This document shows positions 1-11,158 of a stretch of 11,158 bases of DNA, piece after piece. Below the pieces are notes generated by a model. That model did not search any database and was not told the DNA's origin. It saw only the letters and a list, made by a program, of their open reading frames with translations. Numbering within the stretch: the first letter of the stretch is position 1; each line of letters opens with the position of its first letter. The position numbers were made by a program, and so were the translations under genes. Source of the stretch: Pseudomonadota bacterium. Its GTDB lineage: Bacteria; Pseudomonadota; Alphaproteobacteria; Acetobacterales; Acetobacteraceae. The stretch covers positions 1 to 11,158 of the forward strand of contig JAJZFF010000291.1 in NCBI GenBank assembly GCA_021805485.1. The letters run 5' to 3'.

Positions 1-1
1 G

Positions 2-793
2 GGCATCGTGATGCGCGGCGGCGACCAGATCGTGCTGGTGGACACGCCGGGCATTTTCGCGCCGAAGCGGCGGCTCGACCGCGCGATGGTCGCGGCGGCG
101 TGGGAGGGGGTGGCTGGCGCCGATCTCGCCTGCCTGATCGTCGATGCCGCGAAGGCGGACCCGGACGATCTCGCCGAGCCGATCGAGGCGCTCGCCGCGA
201 CCGGGCGGCCGCGCTGGCTGATCCTCAACAAGATCGACCTGCTGCCGCGCGACAAGCTGCTGCCGCTGGCCGAAACGCTGGCGCGGCAGGGCGGGTTCGC
301 GGAAGTGTTCATGATCAGCGCGCTGAAGCGCGACGGCGTCGATCGCCTGCTCGACGCGCTGGCCGCGGCGATGCCCGAAGGCCCGCATCTCTACCCCGAG
401 GACGAGCTGACCGACCAGACCGAGCGAATGCTCGCTGCCGAGCTGGTGCGCGAGCAGATCTTTCTCCAGCTGCGCGACGAGGTGCCCTACGGCGCCTCCG
501 TCGAGACCGAGAGTTTCAGCGAGCGGAAGGACGGATCGGTGCGGATCGACGTTACCGTCTATGTCGCGCGTGCCGGTCACAAGAAGATCGTGCTCGGCGA
601 GGGCGGGGCGCCCGGCCACAAGAAGATCGTGCTCGGCGAGGGCGGGGCGCGCATCAAGTCGATCGGTTCGCGGGCGCGGCGGGATCTCGAGCGCCAGCTG
701 GAGCGGCGGGTGCACCTGTTTCTCAACGTCAAGGAACGCCCGGGCTGGGACGAGGAGGCCGCGCGGTTGCGCGCCCTCGGCCTCGACGGCTGA
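2..793 (+). CDS. era: GTPase Era, 5'-truncated by window edge, with a 13-residue internal duplication
   Basis: Era is an essential GTPase that binds 16S rRNA and helps mature the 30S subunit. The visible 263 residues begin after the P-loop (G1), which lies outside the window. The G3 motif DTPG is at residues 14-17, G4 NKID at 76-79, and a G5-like SAL at 106-108. The Era linker signature around HLYPEDELTDQ (129-139) follows, then the C-terminal KH domain with its GxxG loop and the typical RPGW near the end. Oddly, the KH loop segment GHKKIVLGEGGA occurs twice in tandem (13 residues inserted, frame kept; DNA 573-650). A doubled GxxG in an essential protein is unlikely to be tolerated, so a sequence artefact is suspected. 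The gene converges with the acyl-CoA dehydrogenase gene, 38 bases away across a hairpin. Identity is certain from the motifs; the duplication is seen directly and its cause is inferred. Confidence 0.95.
   Translation, partial: GIVMRGGDQIVLVDTPGIFAPKRRLDRAMVAAAWEGVAGADLACLIVDAAKADPDDLAEPIEALAATGRPRWLILNKIDLLPRDKLLPLAETLARQGGFAEVFMISALKRDGVDRLLDALAAAMPEGPHLYPEDELTDQTERMLAAELVREQIFLQLRDEVPYGASVETESFSERKDGSVRIDVTVYVARAGHKKIVLGEGGAPGHKKIVLGEGGARIKSIGSRARRDLERQLERRVHLFLNVKERPGWDEEAARLRALGLDG
573..650. repeat. Tandem duplication 2 x 39 bp inside era
   Basis: Bases 573-611 and 612-650 are the same 39-bp unit with one difference (T577 against C616, fifth base of the unit). The frame is kept, adding 13 residues that double the KH-domain GxxG loop. 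Confidence 0.95.
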
Positions 794-795
794 AC

Positions 796-823
796 ACCGG
801 CGCCGGGTTGGCCCGGCGCCGGT
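796..823. terminator. Bidirectional hairpin terminator between convergent era and the acyl-CoA dehydrogenase gene
   Basis: A perfect inverted repeat has arms at 797-807 and 812-822 (11 bp, all G/C), a TTGG loop, and an extra A-T closing pair at 796/823. It sits 3 bases after the era stop and 9 bases short of the stop of the opposing gene, where a shared terminator is expected. No long T-run follows on either strand, which is common in high-GC genomes, so intrinsic efficiency is uncertain. Confidence 0.75.
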
Positions 824-831
824 TCAGAACG

Positions 832-2000
832 TCAGGCGGCGAGCCGGCGGCGATGGTGGTCGGCGTTGCCGAACATCGTGTCGATCATGGTCAGCCGCTT
901 GAAATAGTGGCCGGCCTTGTATTCCATCGTCATCGCGATGCCGCCATGCAGCTGGATCGCCTGCTGGCCGACGAAGTGCAGCGCCTTGCCCACCCCGGCC
1001 TTGGCCAGCGCCATCGCCTTGCCGCGCGCCTCGGCATCGTCGTCGGCGACCGAGAGGGCGGCGAAGATGGCGAGGCTGCGCGCCTGTTCCAGCGCCACAT
1101 ACATGTCCACCGCGCGGTGCTGCAGCGCCTGGAAGACGGAAATCGCCACCCCGAACTGCTTGCGCTGCTTCATGTAGTCGACGGTCAGGCCGACCAGGGC
1201 CTCCATCGCGCCCACCGCCTCGGCGCAGAGGGCGGCGATCGTCTCGTCGCGCGCGCGCTCCAGCACCGCGAGATCGCCGATCTGCCGCGCGGCCGGAACC
1301 CGCACGCTGGCGAGCGAGATTTCCGCGCCGCGCAGCAGGTCCTGCATCGGATAGCCGCGGCGGGAGACGCCTTCGGCCTTCGCATCGACCAGGAACAGGC
1401 CGATCCCGTCGCGGTCGCGCCGGCTGCCGGCAAGGCGGGCGCTGACGATCCGATCCCGTCGCGATCGCGCCGGCTGCCGGCAAGGCGGGCGCTGACGATC
1501 AGCCAGTCCGCCGTATCGCCGCCGAGGACCACCGACTTCTCGCCTTCGAGGATGAAATGATCGCCGTCGCGCTTCGCGGTAGTGGTCACGTCTTCGAGGT
1601 CGTGGCGGGAACTGCGCTCGGTATGGGCGACGGCGACGATCGTCTCGCCGGCGGCAAGTGCGGGAATCACCTCGTCCCTCACGGCCGCGCTTGAGCCGTG
1701 GCGCAGGACGGCGCCGGCGAAGACGATCGCGGCGAGATAGGGTTCGAGGGCCAGCGCCTTGCCGATCTCCTCCATGACGATCATGGTCTCGACCGGCCCG
1801 CCGCCGAAGCCGCCCTGCGCCTCGTCGAAGGGCAGGGCGAGCAGCCCGGCCTCGGCATATTCGGCCCAGACCGCGCGGTCGAATCCTTCGGGAAGTTTCG
1901 CATAGGCCTTGCGCTTTTCGAAATCGGCGTAGCGGCTGGCGAAAAGCTTGCCGACACTGTCGCGCAGCAGGCGCTGTTCTTCGGTAAAATCGAAATCCAT
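832..2000 (-). CDS. pimD: Acyl-CoA dehydrogenase, small-subunit (PimD) type, frameshifted by a 50-bp duplication
   Basis: This is a flavin acyl-CoA dehydrogenase resembling the small subunit of pimeloyl-CoA dehydrogenase, oxidising acyl-CoA to trans-2-enoyl-CoA in the cytoplasm. The ATG at 2000 is preceded by GAGGA seven bases upstream, overlapping the stop of the large-subunit gene. The N-terminus (MDFDFTEEQRLLRDSV) and GGFGGGPVETMIVMEE at about 63-78 are typical. The frame is good to about residue 184 (ARLAGSRRDRDGIG). The 50-bp duplication at 1400-1499 then shifts it, and as written translation stops at 1185. The remaining half (from about 1400 to the TGA at 832) continues in another frame with LFLVDAKAEGV and ends ADHHRRRLAA. 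Deleting one copy gives one 372-residue protein, normal for the family. The C-terminus has FGNADHH where classical enzymes carry the YEG glutamate, consistent with a non-catalytic partner subunit. Family assignment is firm; the pim assignment rests on operon order. Confidence 0.85.
1400..1499. repeat. Tandem duplication 2 x 50 bp, frameshifting
   Basis: Bases 1400-1449 and 1450-1499 repeat a 50-bp unit with one difference (G1414 against A1464). Fifty is not a multiple of three, so the pimD-like frame is broken here. With one copy removed, the protein joins correctly as DRDGIG-LFLVDAK. Confidence 0.95.
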
Positions 2001-2010
2001 TGTCTTGTCC

Positions 2011-3222
2011 TCAGAACCCCAGGATCGCCTTGGCGATGATGTTGCGCTGGATCTCGTTCGAGCCGCCGTAGATCGAGATCTTCCGCCAGTTGAAGTAGGT
2101 GGGCGCCGCCTCGGCCGCGTCGTCCGGCCCGATCGGCATGGCGTTGCCATCGTCATCCGGATCGGTCGAGCCCTGGAACGGCATGGCGAGCGGGCCGACG
2201 ACATCGAGCAGAAGCTCGGTCGTCGCCTGCTGGATTTCCGAACCCTTGATCTTGAGGATCGAGGATTTCGGATCCGGCCGGCCATGCTTGCCCGATTTGC
2301 GCGCCTCGGCGAGCACGCGGAGCTGGGTGATTTCCAGCGCCTTGAGATCGATCTCGACATCCACGAGCTTCTCGCGGAACCAGGGCGCGTCGATCAGCCT
2401 GGCATCGCCGGCCCGCTCGATCGCGGCGAGTTCGCGGATGCGACGCAGGCGCTGCTTCGAGGCGCCGACGCGGGCGATACCGGTGCGCTCGTTGCCGAGC
2501 AGGAACTTCGCGTAGTCCCAGCCCTTGTTTTCCTCGCCGACGAGGTTTTCCGCCGGCACCTTCACCTCGTCGAACCAGACCTCGTTGACCTCGTGCCCGC
2601 CATCGATCAGCTGGATCGGCCGGACGGTGATGCCGGGCGTCTTCATGTCGACAAGGATGAAGGAAATGCCTTGCTGCTTCTTCTCCGCACCCGGATCGGT
2701 GCGGGCGAGGACGAAGATCCAGTCGGCATACTGGGCGAGGGTCGTCCAGGTCTTCTGGCCGTTGATGATGTAGTGATCGCCCTCGCGGCGGGCCGTGGTC
2801 TTGAGGCCGGCCAGATCCGATCCCGCCCCCGGCTCGGAGAAGCCCTGGCACCACCAGATATCGAGGTTGGCCGTCGCCGGCAGGAATTTCCGCTTCTGCT
2901 CGTCATTGCCGAAGGTCGCGATCACCGGGCCGACCATGGAGACGTTGAACGGCAGCGGGCTGGGCGCGGGGGCCGATTGCAACTCGTCGAGCAGGATGAA
3001 TTCCTGCACCGGGCTCCAGTCCTGCCCGCCCCAGGCGCGCGGCCAGTGCGGCACCGCCCAGCCTTTCGCGTTCAGCTTGCGCTGCCAGTCGACAATGTCC
3101 TGCTTGCCGATCTCGCGTCCCTCGATCAGGCGCTTCTGCACATCCCCGGGCAGGTTGTCGCGGATGAAGGCGCGCACCTCGTCGCGGAACGCGATTTCCT
3201 CGGGCGAAAAGCTGAGTTCCAT
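2011..3222 (-). CDS. pimC: Acyl-CoA dehydrogenase, large-subunit (PimC) type
   Basis: This is an intact 403-residue flavin acyl-CoA dehydrogenase, closest in style to the large subunit of pimeloyl-CoA dehydrogenase. The ATG at 3222 has a strong GAGGAG site six bases upstream. The N-terminal domain begins MELSFSPEEIAFRDEVRAF. The family signature CQGFSEPGAGSDLAGL is at 125-140 (FAD/substrate middle domain), GQKTWTTLAQYADW at about 155-168, and the C-terminal signature YGGSNEIQRNIIAK at 385-398. The classical catalytic Glu position (YEG in medium-chain enzymes) is Gly386 here. Glu245 in GNERTGIARV is a candidate base at the alternative position used by isovaleryl- and long-chain dehydrogenases (inference). 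Ten bases separate its stop from the small-subunit start, which suggests a co-translated heteromeric enzyme. It is not interrupted by any of the window's duplications. It could act on another CoA ester; substrate is not readable from sequence. Confidence 0.9.
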   Translation of the reverse strand: MELSFSPEEIAFRDEVRAFIRDNLPGDVQKRLIEGREIGKQDIVDWQRKLNAKGWAVPHWPRAWGGQDWSPVQEFILLDELQSAPAPSPLPFNVSMVGPVIATFGNDEQKRKFLPATANLDIWWCQGFSEPGAGSDLAGLKTTARREGDHYIINGQKTWTTLAQYADWIFVLARTDPGAEKKQQGISFILVDMKTPGITVRPIQLIDGGHEVNEVWFDEVKVPAENLVGEENKGWDYAKFLLGNERTGIARVGASKQRLRRIRELAAIERAGDARLIDAPWFREKLVDVEIDLKALEITQLRVLAEARKSGKHGRPDPKSSILKIKGSEIQQATTELLLDVVGPLAMPFQGSTDPDDDGNAMPIGPDDAAEAAPTYFNWRKISIYGGSNEIQRNIIAKAILGF

Positions 3223-3232
3223 GGCGCTCTCC

Positions 3233-3328
3233 TCAGTTGTTCTCGAAACGGCCGGCGCTGTCCTTGCGGGTGCCGGTGGGGGTGTCCATCCGCCCGCGCG
3301 GGGCGGCGGCGATGGTGGGCGGGATCAT
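3233..3328 (-). CDS. Candidate 31-residue small ORF between ligase and large dehydrogenase
   Basis: The ATG at 3328 overlaps the ligase TGA as ATGA, and the frame stays open for 31 codons (begins MIPPTIAAAPRGR, ends RFENN) to a TGA at 3233-3235, just before the next gene's ribosome site. It is basic, has no membrane segment, and I recognise no family. It fills nearly all of the 102-base gap where R. palustris carries the thiolase gene pimB. It may be a coupled small protein, a leader that passes ribosomes to pimC, or chance in GC-rich DNA. Low confidence. Confidence 0.22.
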   Translation of the reverse strand: MIPPTIAAAPRGRMDTPTGTRKDSAGRFENN

Positions 3329-5010
3329 GGTGCCGCAGCACCCGAAGCTCTGGCGGAAGCGTGCCGTTCGCGTTCCTCCGCCGCGAGTTCCTTGCGGGAG
3401 AACTTGCCGACCGATTCCTTGCGCGAGAACTTGCCGACCGATGTCTTCGGCAGGGCCTCGCGGAATTCGACGGCGGCGGGGAGTTCGTGCTTGCCGAGCT
3501 TGTCGGCGAGGAAGTCGCGCAGCGACTCGATCGTGAATTCCGCCGCACCCGGCTTCAGCGTTATGAAGGCCTTGGCCGACTGGCCGCGATAGTCGTCCGG
3601 CACGCCGACGACGATGACCTCGGCGACGTCGGGGTGTTCGTAGATCGCGCTCTCGATCACGGTCGGGTAGACGTTGAAGCCGCCCGAGAGGATCATGTCC
3701 TTCTTGCGATCGACGAGGAAGACCATGCCGTCCTCGTCGATATAGCCGACATCTCCGGTCAGGAAATGGCCGTCGACGAAACTGCGGGCGGTCTCCTCGG
3801 GGTTCTGCCAGTAGCCGATGAAGGTGTTGGGCGAGCGGATGCGGATTTCGCCGGTTTCGCCATAAGGCAGCACGCGGGACGGATCGTCGAGGGCGACGAC
3901 GTCGAGCTTGATGCCGGGCAGTGGCATGCCGGCGGAGCCGAACTTGAACAGCCCGTCGAGCAGGTTGCCGGTGCCGGCCGAGGCGGTTTCGGTCATGCCC
4001 CAGCCGCCGCCGAGGCGCATGCCGGTCAGCCGCTCGAAACGCTGCCCGATTTCCACCGGCAGCGGCGCGCCGCCCGAGCCGACGAGGCGAAGCGACGACA
4101 GGTCCCGCCGGTCGAGATCCGGCACGTTGGCGAGCGCGATCCACATCGTCGGCACACCGGGAAAATAGCTCGCCTTCTTCACCTCGATGTCGCGCAGCGT
4201 GGTCTCGGCATCGAATTTCAGCCGCAGCAGCAGCGTCGATCCGCGCGAGAGCTGCAACAGGCAGAGCACGACCAGCGCGTAGATATGGAACAGCGGCAGC
4301 ACGCAGATCGCGCGGAATTTCTGCCCCGGCGGGAAGCGGTTCTGGCCGTCGAAGAAGGTGGCGTAGATCGCGACCGCCGCCCGCAGCGTCGCGTGCGTGT
4401 GCATCGCCCCCTTGGGCAGGCCGGTGGTGCCGCCGGTATATTGCAGCAGCGCCAGATCGTCCGGCGCGATGGCGGGCGGCTCGAACGCGAATGCCCGTCC
4501 CCGCGCGCGCAGGGCATCGAGCGTCATCACCCGCGGATCGCCCGTCGGGATCGGCGGGTGCGCCATGCCGGGGATCTCGCCGAACGCCGCGTCGTCGGCG
4601 ACGATGATGCGCTCCACATGCCCGGCATCGAGCAGTTTCAGCGCCATGCCGAGCATCGCGCCGAGATTGGTCGTCACCAGCGTGCGTGCGCCGGAATCGT
4701 GCAGCTTGTGGGCAAGCACCAGCGTGCGTGCGCCGGAATCGTGCAGCTTGTGAGCAAGCTCGCGCTCCGCATCCAGCGGCGAGAGATGCGCGACGACGAG
4801 CCCCGCCGTCAGCGCGCCGTAGAAGCAGAACGGGTGCGCCGGCACGTTCGGCAGATAAAGCGCGATGCGCTCGCCCTTCGCATGGCCGAGCGATGCGAGC
4901 CCTGCGGCAACCTCGCCGATGGCTTCGCCGAGCTCGGCGAAGCCGGTTTCACGGTCGCGATATTCCAGCGCGGGCAGCGCCGCGTTTTCGGCAACGCTGC
5001 GCACGATCAT
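3325..5010 (-). CDS. pimA: AMP-forming acyl-CoA ligase (PimA/FadD type) with two in-frame duplications and a damaged N-terminus
   Basis: This ANL-superfamily ligase activates a carboxylic acid to acyl-AMP and then acyl-CoA. From the ATG at 5010 the frame encodes 561 residues. The ATP-binding loop YTGGTTGLPKG is at 191-201, GWGMTE at 336-341, TGD at 418-420, and the hinge/A8 region DRKKDMILSGGFNVYP at 434-449. The A10 catalytic lysine motif SVGKFSRKE occurs twice (524-541) through a 27-bp duplication, and LAHKLHDSGARTLV occurs twice (85-112) through a 42-bp duplication. The start at 5010 is probably not the native one: it opens at RSVAENAALPALEYRDR, which lies some 30 residues into the family, and its nearest GGGAG is 12 bases away. 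The native start is likely the ATG at 5050 (separate entry), out of frame. It is third from last in the pim-like operon, where it would supply the CoA ester. A dicarboxylate or medium/long-chain acid substrate is inferred from context only. Confidence 0.88.
   Translation of the reverse strand: MIVRSVAENAALPALEYRDRETGFAELGEAIGEVAAGLASLGHAKGERIALYLPNVPAHPFCFYGALTAGLVVAHLSPLDAERELAHKLHDSGARTLVLAHKLHDSGARTLVTTNLGAMLGMALKLLDAGHVERIIVADDAAFGEIPGMAHPPIPTGDPRVMTLDALRARGRAFAFEPPAIAPDDLALLQYTGGTTGLPKGAMHTHATLRAAVAIYATFFDGQNRFPPGQKFRAICVLPLFHIYALVVLCLLQLSRGSTLLLRLKFDAETTLRDIEVKKASYFPGVPTMWIALANVPDLDRRDLSSLRLVGSGGAPLPVEIGQRFERLTGMRLGGGWGMTETASAGTGNLLDGLFKFGSAGMPLPGIKLDVVALDDPSRVLPYGETGEIRIRSPNTFIGYWQNPEETARSFVDGHFLTGDVGYIDEDGMVFLVDRKKDMILSGGFNVYPTVIESAIYEHPDVAEVIVVGVPDDYRGQSAKAFITLKPGAAEFTIESLRDFLADKLGKHELPAAVEFREALPKTSVGKFSRKESVGKFSRKELAAEERERHASARASGAAAP
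3388..3441. repeat. Tandem duplication 2 x 27 bp in the ligase A10 motif
   Basis: Bases 3388-3414 and 3415-3441 repeat a 27-bp unit with one difference (G3397 against C3424). The frame is kept, adding nine residues that duplicate the catalytic-lysine motif SVGKFSRKE. Confidence 0.93.
4675..4758. repeat. Tandem duplication 2 x 42 bp in the ligase N-domain
   Basis: Bases 4675-4716 and 4717-4758 repeat a 42-bp unit with one difference (G4711 against A4753, five to six bases from the right end). The frame is kept, adding 14 residues (LAHKLHDSGARTLV). Confidence 0.94.
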
Positions 5011-5050
5011 GCGGATAATTCCGCTCCCACGGGAACGGCCGGGTGCTCAT
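5011..5050 (-). other. Out-of-frame native N-terminus of the acyl-CoA ligase; probable deletion junction at about 5005-5016
   Basis: An ATG at 5050 overlaps the TGA of the upstream gene (5049-5047) as ATGA, like other junctions in this window, and encodes MSTRPFPWERNYP. From memory of the family, this is the canonical opening of alphaproteobacterial FadD/PimA-type ligases, which then continue with a Gly/Trp-containing stretch of roughly 20 residues. Here that stretch is absent. The main ligase frame resumes at IVRSVAEN, shifted by one base. The simplest explanation is loss of about 60 bases, biologically or by mis-assembly. As written, the peptide is out of frame with the rest of the enzyme. 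Confidence 0.6.
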
Positions 5051-7143
5051 GAAGCGGCTTTCGCGTCCTGGGCGAAATCCGCGAACCCTTGGCCGGCATC
5101 CGCGAGGCGGCGCAGCAGGGCGCAGGGGGCGAGCGTTTCGTCGCCCACCGCCGTTGCGTAATGCTCCAGCCGGGCGGCGATCTCCTTCAGCCCGACCAGG
5201 TCGGCGTGGAAGCACGGCCCGCCGCGCCAGACCGGCCAGCCATAGCCGTAGACCCAGACGACATCGACATCCGAGGGGCGGATGGCGATGCCTTCCTCGA
5301 GGATGCGGGCCGCCTCGTTGATCATCGGGTAGGTCATGCGTTCGAGGATTTCCTGGTCGGAAATCGCGCGCCGGGTGACGCCGAGCGCTGCCGCCTTGTC
5401 CTTGATCAGCGCCTCGACCTCGGGGTCGGGCGTCGGCACGCGGCTGCCGTTTTCATAGATGTAGTAGCCGCGGCCGGTCTTCTGGCCGAAGCGGCCCATC
5501 TCGCACAGCGCGTCGGACACCGGTGCTGTGGCGCCGCGATGCTTGCGGATCCGCCAGCCGACATCGAGCCCCGCAAGGTCGCCCATGGCGAACGGGCCCA
5601 TCGGGAAGCCGAACGCCTTGACCACGGCATCGACCTGCTGCGGCAGCGCGCCTTCCAGCATCAGCCGCTCGCACTCGATGGTGCGGCGCGCCAGCATGCG
5701 GTTGCCGACGAACCCGTCGCAATTGCCGACCACGACCGGCACCTTGCCCAGCGTCTTGCCCACCGCGATGGCGGTGGCGATCGACTGCGCGGAACTCTCC
5801 TTGCCGCGCACGATCTCCAGCAGCTTCATCACGTTGGCCGGCGAGAAGAAATGCATGCCGAGAACGTCGCCCGGCCGCTTCGTCGCGGCGGCGATGGCGT
5901 CGACATCCAGCGTCGAGGTGTTGGTCGCGAGCAGCGCGCCGGGGCGGGCGATGCCGTCGAGCCGCGCGAAGACCTCCTTCTTGAGCCCGAGTTCCTCGAA
6001 CACCGCCTCGATGACGATGTCAGCCTCGGCGATCACGCCCCAGTCGGTGCTGCCGGAGAACAGGGCCATGCGCTTCTCGGTCGTTCCCGCCGGCAGCGCG
6101 CCACGCTGGACCGAGACGTCGTAGGTGCCGCGCACGCGGTCGAGCCCGCGGGCCAGCGCCGCCTCGTCGGTTTCGACGACGGTGACCGGGATGCCCGCAT
6201 TGGCGAAATTCATCGCGATACCGCCGCCCATCGTGCCGCCGCCGATGACGACGGCGCGGCCGATTTTCGCCCCTTTCACCTCGGGGCCGATGCCGGGGAT
6301 CTTCTGCGCCTCGCGCTCGGCGAAGAACACATGCCGCTGGGCACGCGACTGGTCGCCGACGACGAGGCGCATGAACGCCTGCTGCTCGGCCTTGGCACCT
6401 TCGTCGAAGGGCAGGGTGAAGGAATTGCGCACGGCTTCGACGCAGGCGGCCGGCGCCTCGACGCCCTTGAGCCGCTTCGTCGCCTCGGCGGCGGCGGCCT
6501 CGAACGCGCTCGGATCGGCCTTGGCGGCGGCAATTTTGTCGCTCCGGTCGCGCACGCGGACCAGCTTCGCGGGATCGACCGTGTGGGCGAAGTCGATCGC
6601 GCCCTGCACCGGGTCGGACACGATCGCGTCGATCAGCCCGTCCGCCAGCGCAGCCTTCGCGCCGATCATCTTCCCGGAGACGATGGCGGCCACCGCCTTT
6701 TCCGGCCCGATCAGCCGCGGCAGGCGCTGCGTGCCGCCGGCGCCCGGCAGCAGGCCGAGCTTGACTTCCGGCAGTCCCATCCGGGCCGACTCGACGGCGA
6801 CGCGATAATGGCAGCCGAGTGCCAGTTCCAGCCCGCCGCCGAGCGTGGTGCCGAACAGCGCGGCGATGACGGGCTTGCGGCAGTTGTCGAACCGCTCGAT
6901 CACCTCGTGCAGGCCCGGCGCGCGCGGCGGCTTGCCGAATTCGGTGATGTCGGCGCCGGCCGAGAAGGTGCGCCCCTTGCAGGCGAGCACGATGGCGCGG
7001 ACCGAGGCATCCGCCTCCGCCGCCGCGAGTTGCTCGACCAGCCCGGCCCGCACGGCATGGCCGAGTGCGTTCACCGGGGGGTTGTCGATCGAGATCACGG
7101 CGACGCCGTTGGCGATTTCGAGCCCGACTTTCTGCTCGCTCAT
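5047..7143 (-). CDS. pimF: Bifunctional enoyl-CoA hydratase / 3-hydroxyacyl-CoA dehydrogenase (PimF/FadB-like)
   Basis: This intact 698-residue enzyme hydrates trans-2-enoyl-CoA and then oxidises the L-3-hydroxyacyl-CoA with NAD+. The N-terminal crotonase domain (1 to about 190) has the oxyanion-hole segment FSAGADI at 60-66 and both catalytic glutamates, Glu106 (LGGGLELALG) and Glu126 (GLPEVKLGLLPGAGGT), spaced 20 apart as in FadB. The dehydrogenase part has the GGGTMGGG dinucleotide loop at 301-308, the NAD-selecting acidic Glu324, NTST at 408-411, and the His431-Glu443 catalytic dyad in HFFSPANVMKLLEIVRG. Asn481 lies in GFVGNR, and the C-terminal domain includes GFPMGPFAMGDLAGLDVGW. The ATG at 7143 has GGAGG four bases upstream. 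It is first in the operon, and its stop overlaps the native ligase start as ATGA. No duplication interrupts it. The pim symbol rests on order and partners; fadB/fadJ-like is the safe name. Confidence 0.92.
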   Translation of the reverse strand: MSEQKVGLEIANGVAVISIDNPPVNALGHAVRAGLVEQLAAAEADASVRAIVLACKGRTFSAGADITEFGKPPRAPGLHEVIERFDNCRKPVIAALFGTTLGGGLELALGCHYRVAVESARMGLPEVKLGLLPGAGGTQRLPRLIGPEKAVAAIVSGKMIGAKAALADGLIDAIVSDPVQGAIDFAHTVDPAKLVRVRDRSDKIAAAKADPSAFEAAAAEATKRLKGVEAPAACVEAVRNSFTLPFDEGAKAEQQAFMRLVVGDQSRAQRHVFFAEREAQKIPGIGPEVKGAKIGRAVVIGGGTMGGGIAMNFANAGIPVTVVETDEAALARGLDRVRGTYDVSVQRGALPAGTTEKRMALFSGSTDWGVIAEADIVIEAVFEELGLKKEVFARLDGIARPGALLATNTSTLDVDAIAAATKRPGDVLGMHFFSPANVMKLLEIVRGKESSAQSIATAIAVGKTLGKVPVVVGNCDGFVGNRMLARRTIECERLMLEGALPQQVDAVVKAFGFPMGPFAMGDLAGLDVGWRIRKHRGATAPVSDALCEMGRFGQKTGRGYYIYENGSRVPTPDPEVEALIKDKAAALGVTRRAISDQEILERMTYPMINEAARILEEGIAIRPSDVDVVWVYGYGWPVWRGGPCFHADLVGLKEIAARLEHYATAVGDETLAPCALLRRLADAGQGFADFAQDAKAAS

Positions 7144-7181
7144 GTTTCCTCCGCTTGGATGGCCGCAGCCTGCACCATTGG

Positions 7182-7217
7182 TTAAGCGTTTATCGCTTGC
7201 GGTCGGGGGCGATGCAA
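7182..7217 (-). promoter_or_regulatory. Possible promoter and small palindrome upstream of the beta-oxidation operon
   Basis: On the minus strand TTGCAT (7217-7212), 17 bases, then GATAAA (7194-7189) makes a modest sigma-70-like pair about 45-50 bases before the ATG. A palindrome AAGCG-N5-CGCTT (7184-7198) overlaps the -10 and could be an operator. The surrounding A/T enrichment is unusual for this window. The -35 lies inside the hairpin at 7201-7228. No factor can be named. Confidence 0.35.
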
Positions 7218-7228
7218 GACCCCCGGCC
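7201..7228 (-). terminator. GC hairpin after the solute-binding protein gene
   Basis: The arms 7201-7209 and 7220-7228 pair over nine positions (eight Watson-Crick and one G-T) around a 10-base loop. It lies 13 bases past the stop of the upstream gene. No T-run follows on the minus strand, so it is at best a weak intrinsic terminator or an attenuating structure separating the two transcription blocks. Confidence 0.4.
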
Positions 7229-7241
7229 CGCCTTCGCGGTG

Positions 7242-8318
7242 TCAGAGGCCGGGGCCGACCATTTCGCGCGCGAACCAGGCGATCGCCGGCAGCGGGTTGG
7301 CGGCGACCGCGGCCGGATCGCGCGGGGCGAGGGCGGCAAGGTCCGGCAGGCCTGGCGGCGGCGGCACCGTCGCGTTCACCGGCCAGAAGGCTGAATCCAT
7401 GTCGTCGGACGCGAGCGCCGCGCGCTGGCCGGCGGGCGAGCAGGCAAAGGCGATGAACGCCGACGCCGCCCGCCGCAAGGCCGGCGTCATGTGCCGCGGC
7501 ATCACGATCAGGCTCGGCATCAGCACGGCTGGAGCCGGCACGACGGCTTCGAGCGAGGGATCGATCCGGGAAGCGACGTGGAAGGCCACGGCGGAGCGGA
7601 CGAGGGCGAGCTGGATGGCCCCGCTGCGCAGGGCGGCGACGGTGTCCGCCGTGGTGGCGTAGATATGCAGCCCGGCGCCGCCGAGCGCGGTGACGAAGCG
7701 GCGCCCGTCCGGCCAACCCTCGGTGGCCAGCAGGCTCGCGAGGCCGCCCCAGGCTGCGTCGTCCGTCGTCGGGTCGGCCATGCCCGTGAGTCCGCGGCGG
7801 GCCGGCGCGAGCAGGCCGTGCCAGTGCAGCGGCGGCGTAAACGGCGCCGATTTCGACATCAGCACCACGCCGCCGAGTTCGAGTCCGGTCGGGATTGCGC
7901 TGCCATGCGGCGGCGTGAACGGCGCCGATTTCGACATCAGCACCACGCCGCCGAGTTCGAGTCCGGTCGGGATTGCGCTGCCATCCGCCGGAATGAGGGC
8001 GGCGGCGCGGGGCGAGAGGCCGGCCGGCACCGGCAGATGGCGCGCCAGCAGCCCCCGCGCGTCGAGGGCCACGGCGTTCGGCGTGCCGGCGAACCAGGCG
8101 AGCGCCCATCGCGGGTGCGCGCCCTCGCGCTCGATCCGGTCGGCGAGGCCGGTCGGCGGCGGGCGGCGCACGCGCACGGCGATCCCGGTCTTCGCGGTGA
8201 AGGCGCGGGCGACGGCGGGCGCATAATCAAGCCGCGAATACAGCGTGAGCGATGCGGCGTGCGCGGCGAAGGGCATGCCGAACAGGCAGGCGAGAACAAG
8301 CGAAGCGAGACGGCGCAT
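7242..8318 (-). CDS. Periplasmic solute-binding protein (iron(III)/ABC type 2-like) with a 26-residue duplication
   Basis: This 358-residue (332 without the duplication) extracellular solute-binding protein starts with a signal peptide: basic MRR, a hydrophobic stretch LASLVLACLFGMPF, then a likely signal-peptidase-I site after AAHA. The mature start SLTLYSRLDYAPAVARAFTAKTGI is the classic first strand of the Fbp-like binding proteins. Later segments such as LRSGAIQLALVRSAVA and AFIAFACSPAGQRA are family-typical. No permease or ATPase gene is adjacent, so the partner transporter and ligand are unknown; iron is only the family prototype. The ATG at 8318 overlaps the upstream stop as TGATG and has GGGAG seven bases upstream. 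HGSAIPTGLELGGVVLMSKS occurs twice (DNA 7829-7984), frame kept. Being last after two TPR transferases is unusual for a transporter component; a regulatory or polymer-binding role is possible but unsupported. Confidence 0.75.
   Translation of the reverse strand: MRRLASLVLACLFGMPFAAHAASLTLYSRLDYAPAVARAFTAKTGIAVRVRRPPPTGLADRIEREGAHPRWALAWFAGTPNAVALDARGLLARHLPVPAGLSPRAAALIPADGSAIPTGLELGGVVLMSKSAPFTPPHGSAIPTGLELGGVVLMSKSAPFTPPLHWHGLLAPARRGLTGMADPTTDDAAWGGLASLLATEGWPDGRRFVTALGGAGLHIYATTADTVAALRSGAIQLALVRSAVAFHVASRIDPSLEAVVPAPAVLMPSLIVMPRHMTPALRRAASAFIAFACSPAGQRAALASDDMDSAFWPVNATVPPPPGLPDLAALAPRDPAAVAANPLPAIAWFAREMVGPGL
7829..7984. repeat. Tandem duplication 2 x 78 bp in the solute-binding protein gene
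   Basis: Bases 7829-7906 and 7907-7984 repeat a 78-bp unit with one difference (A7839 against G7917, 11 bases from the left end). The frame is kept, adding 26 residues. Confidence 0.96.
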
Positions 8319-9809
8319 CAGAGACTCCCGGCAACCCGTTCGACGACGCCGGACCAGTCGGAGGGGCGCTCCTGGCGGAACAGGCGCAGCGACGGGTACC
8401 AGGGCGTGTCCTCGCGGTCCAGCAGCCAGCGCCAGTCGAGGACTCCCGGCAACCCGTTCGACGACGCCGGACCAGTCGGAGGGGCGCTCCTGGCGGAACA
8501 GGCGCAGCGACGGGTACCAGGGCGTGTCCTCGCGGTCCAGCAGCCAGCGCCAGTCGGGCGCATAGGGCAGGATGATCGAGGTCGGCACGCCCGAGGCGCC
8601 GGCCAGATGAGCGACGGAGGTGTCGATCGTCACCAGCCGGTCGAGGCATTGCAGGATCGCCAGCGTATCGGTGAAATCGAAGATCGACGGCCCGAGATTG
8701 ACCAGCGGCGCCGGGCCGAAATACCCGCCCACCTCGTCGATCCGGTCGCCTTTCTGCACGGTGACGATCGCGATGTCCGGCCGCGCGAACAGCGGCGCGA
8801 AACGCTCCAGCCGCACCGTGCGCTTGCGGTCGTTCTTGTGGGTCGGCCGCCCGGCCCAGACCAGGCCGATGCGCTTCAGCCCCGGCGGCACCAGCGCGGC
8901 GAGGCGCTGGCGCCACGCCTCCACCTTGCGCGGATCGGCCCGCAGATAGGGGATGTCCGCCGGAATCGTCGCGATCGTCGTGCCGGCGAGGCGCGGCAGC
9001 CCGGAGAGCGGCATGAAGGCGTCATACTCGCCCGCGGCGGCCCAGCTGTTCGCGAACCGGCCCACCTCGGGGAACTGCCGCAGCAGCGGCATGAGATCAC
9101 CGCCACAGGCGATCACCGGCTTCGGCGCGCGCGCCGCGACCCAGGGGATATAGCGGCCGAACTGGATGCAGTCCCCGAAGCCCTGGTCGGCGACCAGCAG
9201 CAGCCGCCCCTCCGGCATCGGGCTGCCGTCCCATTGCGGCTTGTCGGTCTTCGGCAGCATGCCGTCGGCCTGCTTCAGCTTGAAGCGCCATTCGTAGCTC
9301 TCCCAGCCTTCCGTCAGCCTTCCGCCGATCAGCAGCAGCTCGGCGCGCTCGAAATGCGCCTCGGCGAAATCAGGTGAAAGCGCGATGGCGCGGTCGGCCG
9401 CCTCGATGCCCGCGTCCAGCTCGTGGCGCTCGTAGCGGATCAGGGCGAGATTGAAATGCGCGGCGCGCTCCTCCGGCGCGAGTTCGACGGCGCGCAACGC
9501 CATCGCCAGCGCGTCGTCGAGCCGCCCGGCGCCGCGATAGATCTCGCAGGCGTTGCGCGGATAGATCGCGACCTCCGGCGCCAGGACGAGGGATTTCTCG
9601 ATCCGCTCGATCGCGCGCGGGATGTTGCCGCGCCGGTAGGCGACGATCCCCGAGAGATGCAGGATGTGCGGATGCCCGGGCGAGGCGGCGACCGCGCGCT
9701 CGGCGAGCGATTCGGCGTCCTCCAGCCTGCCGTCCCGTTCGAGCGCGGTGATCTCGGCCAGCACCTCGCCGACCGTGATCTTCGCCGTCGGTTGCGGCGC
9801 GGCGCTCAT
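8318..9809 (-). CDS. TPR-repeat glycosyltransferase (GT9/heptosyltransferase-like), frameshifted near its C-terminus
   Basis: The repaired protein has 457 residues: tetratricopeptide repeats over about 15-180 (for example HFNLALIRYERHELDAGIEA at 118-137), then a GT-B-like transferase half. That half has LLVADQGFGDCIQFGRYIPW at 204-223, RIGLVWAGRPTHKNDRKR at 313-330, and the nucleotide-sugar-site motif IDTSVAHLAGASGVPT at 395-410, ending DTPWYPSLRLFRQ. Such TPR-GT9 fusions are common and mostly uncharacterised in Acetobacteraceae and Rhizobiales; a glycan or protein acceptor is plausible but unknown. The ATG at 9809 overlaps the sulfotransferase stop as ATGA, with GGAGG seven bases upstream. 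A 118-bp duplication at 8323-8558 shifts the frame after VAGS. As written, the frame misses its stop and runs without interruption into the binding-protein gene, so a gene caller would report a false fusion. With one copy removed it ends VERVAGSL at the TGA 8318-8320. No signal peptide; cytoplasmic. Confidence 0.87.
8323..8558. repeat. Tandem duplication 2 x 118 bp, frameshifting, at the end of the TPR-glycosyltransferase gene
   Basis: Bases 8323-8440 and 8441-8558 repeat a 118-bp unit with one difference (A8439 against G8557, two bases from the right end). 118 leaves a remainder of one on division by three, so the frame shifts and the native stop at 8318-8320 is skipped. Confidence 0.97.
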
Positions 9810-11115
9810 GCCGCGCCCTCCGGCGTCGCGGCATAGCCGAGGCGCTCGATCCAGGGGGCGAGAACCGGCATCGCCTCGCCGAAGACGTCGCCGAAGCGGC
9901 GGTGGCGGAACACACCCCGGCGATGCGGCGGCTCCAGCTCGGCGCGATAGGCCGGAACGCGCGGGACGGCGCGCGGCGGGGCGGCGATCATCGCGGCGGG
10001 GTCGGCGGCCAGGCCGATGAAGTCGAGCACGCGGCGCAGCGTCGCCTCCGTGTCGGTGACGAGATCCTCGTAGCGGACGGGCAGGTAGCGCATGGTGGTC
10101 TGTCCGCGGACATGGGCGATGGCGTTCATCTGCGCGTCGTAGAGCCGGGCGAGGCTGGCCAGCGTCACGCCGGCATTGCCGTCGTAAAGCCGGTCCTGCG
10201 CGAAGCCGGACAGTACCACGTCGAGGGGGTGGCGCAGCACATGGATCACCGGCGCCCCCGGGAACAGCGTGTTGGCGAGGCCGAGCAGCCAGGGCAGTTC
10301 GGGATGGCGGTCGGTCACGAACCGCGCCTGCGGCCCGACAATGCCGGCGGCGCGGATCAGGGCGGCATAGCGGCTGGCGAGAATGGCCATAGCGGCTGGC
10401 GAGAATGGCCGGAATGTCCTGCGCCTCGCCGGCCACCGTGCCCTCGAGGGCGGCCGGAAAGTCGAGCGTCGGCCCGCCAAACCCCTCGACCAGCCTGGGC
10501 AGCAGCCGCCCGAGGCCGGGCAGCGGCGCGCGGTTGTCCGCGGGGTCGATCTCCGTCGCCTGGGCCAGCAGGTGTTCCAGCAGGGACGATCCGGAGCGCG
10601 GCGCGCCGAGCAGGAAGACCGGCACCGGCGCGTTCGCCACGGGCGCCGGCCGCGGCAGCCCTGCCAGACGGTCGGCCCTGAACGTTTCGCGGATGCCGGG
10701 GCGCTGGCCGCGGCAGCCCTGCCAGACGGTCGGCCCTGAACGTTTCGCGGATGCCGGCGAGCCGGGCCTCGATCGGCGCGGGATCGAACCGGCGGCGGGC
10801 GCGTTCGCGCTGGAAGTCGCGGCCGGCAAGATAGGCGGCCCAGGCCTCGTCGTGGCGGCCGAGGCGTTCCAGCGCGCGGCCGCGCATCGCCAGTTCGGTG
10901 GTGAGCAGCGGTTGCGGCGCGATTGCCGCCTCGGTGGCGGCGATGCGGTCGAGCGCGGCCTCGGCATCGCCCGCACGCAGCCGGGACAGTGCGATCAGGG
11001 CCGCGACCATGCGGTCGCCCGGGGCGGCCGTCCCGGCTTCGGCCAGCAGCGCTTCCGCCGCGTCGAACCGGCCGCGCCCGGCCTCGACCTGCGCCAGCCC
11101 GGCCAGAGCGCGCAC
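9806..11115 (-). CDS. TPR-sulfotransferase, frameshifted twice, 5' end uncertain
   Basis: Three frame segments join into one protein if one copy of each of two duplications is removed. From GTG 11115 the repaired length is exactly 409 residues. Residues 1-130 are TPR-like helices (ALAGLAQVEAGRGRFDAAEALL). Then come a PAPS 5'-phosphosulfate loop VFLLGAPRSGSSLLEHLLA (147-165) and the 3'-phosphate site HVLRHPLDVVLSGF (265-278, Arg268 and Ser276). RYEDLVTDTEATLRRVLDFIGL follows at 321-342, typical of the Sulfotransfer_3 family. It would transfer sulfate from PAPS to a hydroxyl of an unknown acceptor in the cytoplasm. The 58-bp (10641-10756) and 22-bp (10365-10408) duplications each shift the frame. 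Family members usually carry more TPR sequence, so the true start probably lies further right. However, an in-frame TAG at 11140-11142 blocks extension as written. It ends with an ATGA overlap into the TPR-glycosyltransferase, implying coupled expression and perhaps a shared acceptor. Confidence 0.8.
10365..10410. repeat. Tandem duplication of 22 bp, frameshifting, in the sulfotransferase gene
   Basis: The 23-base string at 10366-10388 recurs at 10388-10410 (period 22). Taken as units 10365-10386 and 10387-10408, the only difference is the first base (G10365 against C10387). It shifts the frame inside DIPAILASRYAALIR; removing 22 bases restores that string. Confidence 0.88.
10641..10756. repeat. 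Tandem duplication 2 x 58 bp, frameshifting, in the sulfotransferase gene
   Basis: Bases 10641-10698 and 10699-10756 repeat a 58-bp unit with one difference (C10647 against T10705, seventh base). It separates the TPR segment from the P-loop segment; removing one copy joins FRADRLAGLPRPAP to VANAPVPVFLLGAP. Confidence 0.95.
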
Positions 11116-11158
11116 CGGCCGGACAGTTCCGGACAGCGCCTACGCGGAGACCGCCGCC
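11116..11158. other. Unresolved right edge, probably damaged 5' part of the TPR-sulfotransferase gene
   Basis: The minus-strand frame of the TPR segment meets a TAG at 11140-11142. GGACAG occurs at 11121-11126 and again at 11131-11136 (period 10). Removing 10 bases would open the frame to the window edge. This may be one more short duplication or a real start region; too short to decide. Confidence 0.25.

Follow-up and report, generated by a model that had tools for sequence, protein, structure and literature searches.

The stretch analysed here, contig JAJZFF010000291.1 of assembly GCA_021805485.1 (the window, 11,158 bases), carries era, two acyl-CoA dehydrogenase genes, an AMP-binding acyl-CoA ligase gene, a FadB-like 3-hydroxyacyl-CoA dehydrogenase gene, and genes for a solute-binding protein, a tetratricopeptide repeat (TPR) protein and a sulfotransferase, as assigned from Pfam domains and position. 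Pfam gives only TPRs for the TPR gene, the remainder of which we read as glycosyltransferase-like. The window looks like a piece of an Acidiphilium chromosome; its nearest named proteins belong to Acidiphilium, with 93% identity for the ligase and 77% for Era (closer Era entries are unnamed). Scattered over these genes are eight head-to-tail sequence pairs, which are most likely an assembly artefact and not a biological feature.

The same eight pairs were recovered by Tandem Repeats Finder and by a separate lag scan (units of 20-300 bases, at most two mismatches), which yields exactly eight in the window. Their positions and unit sizes agree in both scans with those given in an earlier note on this DNA, and the observation of eight tandem pairs is thus confirmed as a property of the sequence letters. 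All pairs are direct and abutting, and the units sum to 434 bases, with a mean of 54 and a standard deviation of 31. The longest word common to any two units is at most eight bases (28 pairwise comparisons, both strands), so that the units are unrelated, as had been claimed. With about two copies of each unrelated unit, the pairs do not resemble a minisatellite or variable number tandem repeat, which would have more than two copies or related units.

Six of the eight pairs have a single interior mismatch, lying at base 5, 15, 10, 6, 11 or 7 from the nearer unit end. The 118-base pair at 8323 has its one mismatch at unit position 117 of 118, adjoining the join, while the lag scan shows the two copies of the 22-base pair at 10366 to be identical. 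The earlier description of seven pairs with one mismatch and one ambiguous pair therefore holds for the six and for the pair at 8323; the remaining pair is perfect, and its supposedly ambiguous base, 10365, falls outside it.

We compared the window with the nearest genome in our set, G001 (4.2 Mb in 9 contigs), with one contig of which (G001:C6) it is collinear. In a global alignment, each of the eight units is present once in G001, and this comparison with an unduplicated relative, proposed earlier as a check, gave the single-copy state throughout. Relative to G001, the window has no insertions besides these units and not a single one-base indel, next to 158 substitutions (bases within the inserted copies uncounted) and two stretches, of 47 and 6 bases, that it lacks. 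The window contains no N. Natural coding differences between window and G001 are synonymous in 117 of 154 cases. The pairs and related features are collected in Table 1.

Table 1. Abutting pairs, candidate joins and other irregular places in the window
Feature	Coordinates	Strand	Unit (bases)	Context
Candidate join 1	573..650	+	39	In frame, inside era (GTPase Era, KH region); 13 residues doubled
Candidate join 2	1400..1499	-	50	Frameshift, inside first acyl-CoA dehydrogenase gene (about 832-2000)
Candidate join 3	3388..3441	-	27	In frame, near C-terminus of acyl-CoA ligase gene (3325-5010)
Candidate join 4	4675..4758	-	42	In frame, acyl-CoA ligase gene (3325-5010)
Join-like defect	5010..5011	-		47 G001 bases absent; ligase start region out of frame
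Candidate join 5	7829..7984	-	78	In frame, inside solute-binding protein gene (7242-8317)
Candidate join 6	8323..8558	-	118	Frameshift, 3' end of TPR/glycosyltransferase-like gene (8318-9809)
Candidate join 7	10366..10409	-	22	Perfect pair, frameshift, sulfotransferase gene (9806 to beyond window end)
Candidate join 8	10641..10756	-	58	Frameshift, sulfotransferase gene (9806 to beyond window end)
Window tip	11136..11158	-		Four G001 differences within 12 bases (11136-11147), three of them non-synonymous, including a stop

Over the part covered by the window, each of the eight corresponding G001 frames is open to one stop. In the window itself, only the second acyl-CoA dehydrogenase and the FadB-like gene are unaltered, and the other six genes are changed; half of the units shift the frame and half keep it. 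The 47-base absence, which was missing from the earlier list, shows one base of microhomology and is likely a ninth join. The N-terminal stretch of the ligase that it hits is kept in all five homologues inspected. The 118-base pair carries the frame of the TPR gene into the solute-binding protein gene, giving one open frame on the minus strand (7242..10976). This frame encodes 1,244 residues and joins pieces of three genes; we take it to result from the 118-, 22- and 58-base pairs together with high G+C. Gene models of the window, such as the out-of-frame ligase start, the TPR/solute-binding fusion frame, the broken sulfotransferase and the doubled era stretch, are not to be taken as biology.

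The number of pairs is far above that found elsewhere with the same lag scan. It returned four pairs in 19 stretches of G001 (380,000 bases), none in the 16,001 bases around the homologous place in G001, none in 10,328 bases of G097, none in 29 family loci (148,543 bases), and eight in 80 loci (1,289,771 bases), at least four of which are simple repeats. At least 594 stretches were confirmed, and the 80 loci are the best of them; the family search used window positions 1-5000 only as query against 150 genomes, of which 141 matched, and the scan took loci from 29 of these 141, besides G001. Eight pairs were observed in the window as compared to 0.07-0.12 expected per 11,158 bases (P for eight or more at most 8e-13), a rate about 68 times that of G001 and about 116 times that of the 80 loci. 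Rates from the 19 G001 stretches, the 80 loci and the 29 family loci rule out a chance origin of the pairs. G001 has short tandem pairs of its own, for example a perfect pair of 34-base units at L124:9857 that extends past the length of two copies, and a 53-base pair with one mismatch at L127:18375. A 23-base pattern across the junction of the 8323 pair had no exact match in viral_contigs, which is a poor place to look for chromosomal sequence, and a plasmid search limited to window positions 8200-8700 gave seven Azospirillum records, none of which spanned as much as half of the query.

The 13-residue repeat of era is absent from all 20 nearest Era proteins among the matches listed, of which 18 have 295 residues, one has 296 and one is a 226-residue piece; Era entries lacking the exact search word have normal lengths and showed no repeat in a repeat scan. 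The database is clustered at 90% identity, so that an undoubled representative could conceal a doubled member; among the 20 nearest Era entries, 17 represent one sequence each and the other three represent 3, 7 and 2. Among 357 proteins scanned for doubling (the best 120 of 7950 ligase matches, all 117 sulfotransferase matches and the best 120 of 8000 Era matches), only P0107 and P0109 bear a repeat, an unrelated one of 10 residues. None of the 117 sulfotransferase matches fully covers the out-of-frame start; query coverage is 83% and 80% for the two best and at most 92% (P0161, 37% identity). It is worth mentioning one Era record, P0287, which is 99% identical over 67% of the query, comes from a 1,373-base contig and has its C-terminal part out of frame. 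Close relatives show the undoubled state, as expected for an artefact: the units are single at eight of eight sites in G001, and the era repeat is missing from 20 of the 20 nearest listed Era proteins.

We consider that the window probably consists of about ten short contigs, drawn from an Acidiphilium population and scaffolded in the correct order, whose overlaps of 22-118 bases, mostly differing between strains, were left unmerged (probability roughly 0.88). Unmerged overlaps give the best account of the pairs because G001 has single copies, the pairs are the only insertions, several of them break genes, and slippage-type microhomology is lacking at the would-be breakpoints (0-1 base at all eight sites, measured in G001). 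The earlier note had already proposed a concatenation of unmerged contigs. Its count of about nine becomes about ten once the 47-base absence at 5010/5011 is included, and its attribution of the mismatches to errors at contig tips fares less well, as shown below. In the proposed sequence of events, short contigs from the population would have been set in the right order with read pairs or a reference as guide, and neighbours overlapping by 22-118 bases would have been abutted by a presumed software step that did not merge them, so that every overlap appears twice. At 5010/5011 the pieces probably failed to meet, and 47 bases would have been lost. At most overlaps the two contigs may follow different strain haplotypes, leaving one synonymous difference; such haplotypes would account both for the break made by the assembler and for the uncollapsed overlap.

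The mismatches bear on where the two copies came from. When the reading frame is taken from the single copy in G001, each of the six interior mismatches proves synonymous. A random change at these sites would be synonymous in 24-32% of cases, and six of six has a probability of 0.0004 under random error, rising to 0.0008 when transitions are given three times the weight; at the natural rate between window and G001, the probability is 0.19. Where the copies differ, they differ as haplotypes would, the exceptions being the join-side base at 8323 and the 10366 pair, which has no mismatch. As judged from a small sample of six, the mismatches thus resemble natural variants between strains that had passed selection before any doubling. 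Mixed-strain contigs assembled end to end fit such uniformly synonymous mismatches better than errors at contig tips.

The closest alternative, put forward in the earlier note, keeps the same joins and takes the mismatches as sequencing or assembly errors at the contig tips of a single clone; we regard it as unlikely. Tip errors should place the odd base where copy 1 ends or copy 2 begins, a placement that only two bases fit, the one at 10641 and the one beside the join at 8323. At 573, 1400, 3388 and 7829 it is copy 1 that departs from G001, close to its beginning, and at 4675 it is copy 2, close to its end, so that in five of six interior cases the departing base lies in the copy with the farther contig tip. 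The statement that mismatches lie within about 14 bases of a unit end is true as a description. A preference for the ends is not significant under uniform placement (P of 0.15 for the mean relative distance and 0.066 for all six within 15 bases), and together with the synonymous changes this goes against the claim that terminal bases carry errors. Two further observations suit a single clone with noisy tips. One is that the last 23 bases of the window (11136-11158) look like a noisy contig end, which also counts in favour of the explanation by unmerged overlaps that we prefer; the other is that, when differences from G001 are counted over the 150 bases flanking each of the nine joins, no clear step in divergence emerges.

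The last of these points also weighs against a scaffold of mixed strains, as contigs of different strains might give such a step. To it can be added that we infer both the joins and the second strain from sequence, neither having been seen directly; that the join-side mismatch at 8323 is non-synonymous; and that the perfect pair at 10366 shows that a mismatch is not required for non-merging. Moreover, the default of the one tool described below would not leave such pairs. The inferred joins and strain, the missing step and the perfect pair weaken the strain part of our explanation more than the join part.

Comparable artefacts have been reported in other genomes, and each element of the proposed mechanism has a published precedent. 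The account of the first Entamoeba histolytica assembly describes 161 artefactual tandem duplications at contig boundaries, with a median of 892 bp (PMC2886108). Like the pairs here, they were direct tandem pairs within a scaffold that distorted gene models, and those of Entamoeba vanished on reassembly; unlike them, they come from a eukaryote with known contig boundaries, whereas our units are of 22-118 bases in a bacterium and the boundaries are presumed (PMC2886108). In vertebrate genomes, overlapping contigs are described as duplicated through two haplotypes, with mate pairs used as the test (PMC2864568). The likeness lies in polymorphic contigs that overlap at their ends and are both retained; the difference is that the vertebrate cases had mate-pair tests, while here the two versions would presumably be co-existing strains known from the letters alone (PMC2864568). 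For metagenome assembly, about 40% of gaps are reported to trace to strain polymorphism (PMC3528712).

A tool paper offers the nearest match in size. Newbler or MIRA are said there to leave contig overlaps, which averaged 56 +/- 24 nt where merged (PMC4177539), close to our mean unit of 54 bases. By the default described in the same source, Scaffold_builder abuts poorly matching ends, merges ends of more than 80% identity and fills gaps with N (PMC4177539). The end-to-end rule without merging resembles what we propose; the default output, as described, would hold neither the present pairs nor a 47-base loss free of N (PMC4177539).

A hypermutable lineage that formed real tandem duplications through replication slippage or illegitimate recombination is a very unlikely explanation. 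The head-to-tail orientation is that of true duplications, and four of the eight units keep the frame. Against this, the low microhomology speaks against slippage, for which short direct repeats at the breakpoints would be expected; the other four units shift the frame and era is hit; the pairs are absent from G001, which has 0.12 pairs per window length; and the era repeat is absent from its 20 nearest relatives among the matches listed.

Staggered-nick fill-in and end-joining do not need microhomology, and a synonymous variant of the donor could come along with incoming strain DNA. True duplications made in this way would suit the lack of microhomology and the synonymous variants in one copy, but eight of them would have to fall within 11 kb of largely coding DNA and alter six of the eight genes there. 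They are the least probable explanation of all. Such a density of events, the altered genes and the single state throughout G001 argue against any common process in living cells. Scarcely more credible is the broader possibility of a living Acidiphilium lineage that makes microhomology-free head-to-tail duplications at an extreme rate, for example by nick fill-in or end-joining of sister-strain DNA with the donor's synonymous variant kept. If the duplications were true, they would reflect a very surprising mutational process. As unmerged overlaps, they matter to data hygiene only, and the rest of the record deserves a check for the same defect. The synonymous-mismatch comparison can potentially serve as a cheap way to separate strain-haplotype joins from sequencing errors without reads.

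Two further differences from G001 were observed. At 11028, adjoining GGC repeats in the sulfotransferase gene, the window lacks an in-frame stretch of two codons (six bases) that G001 has. Divergence per piece ranges from 0.32% to 6.8%, with dense differences in 4081-6724 (6.8% in 4717-5010) as compared to 0.3-0.8% in five other pieces. This dense tract resembles a recombination tract, and its edges differ from the joins.

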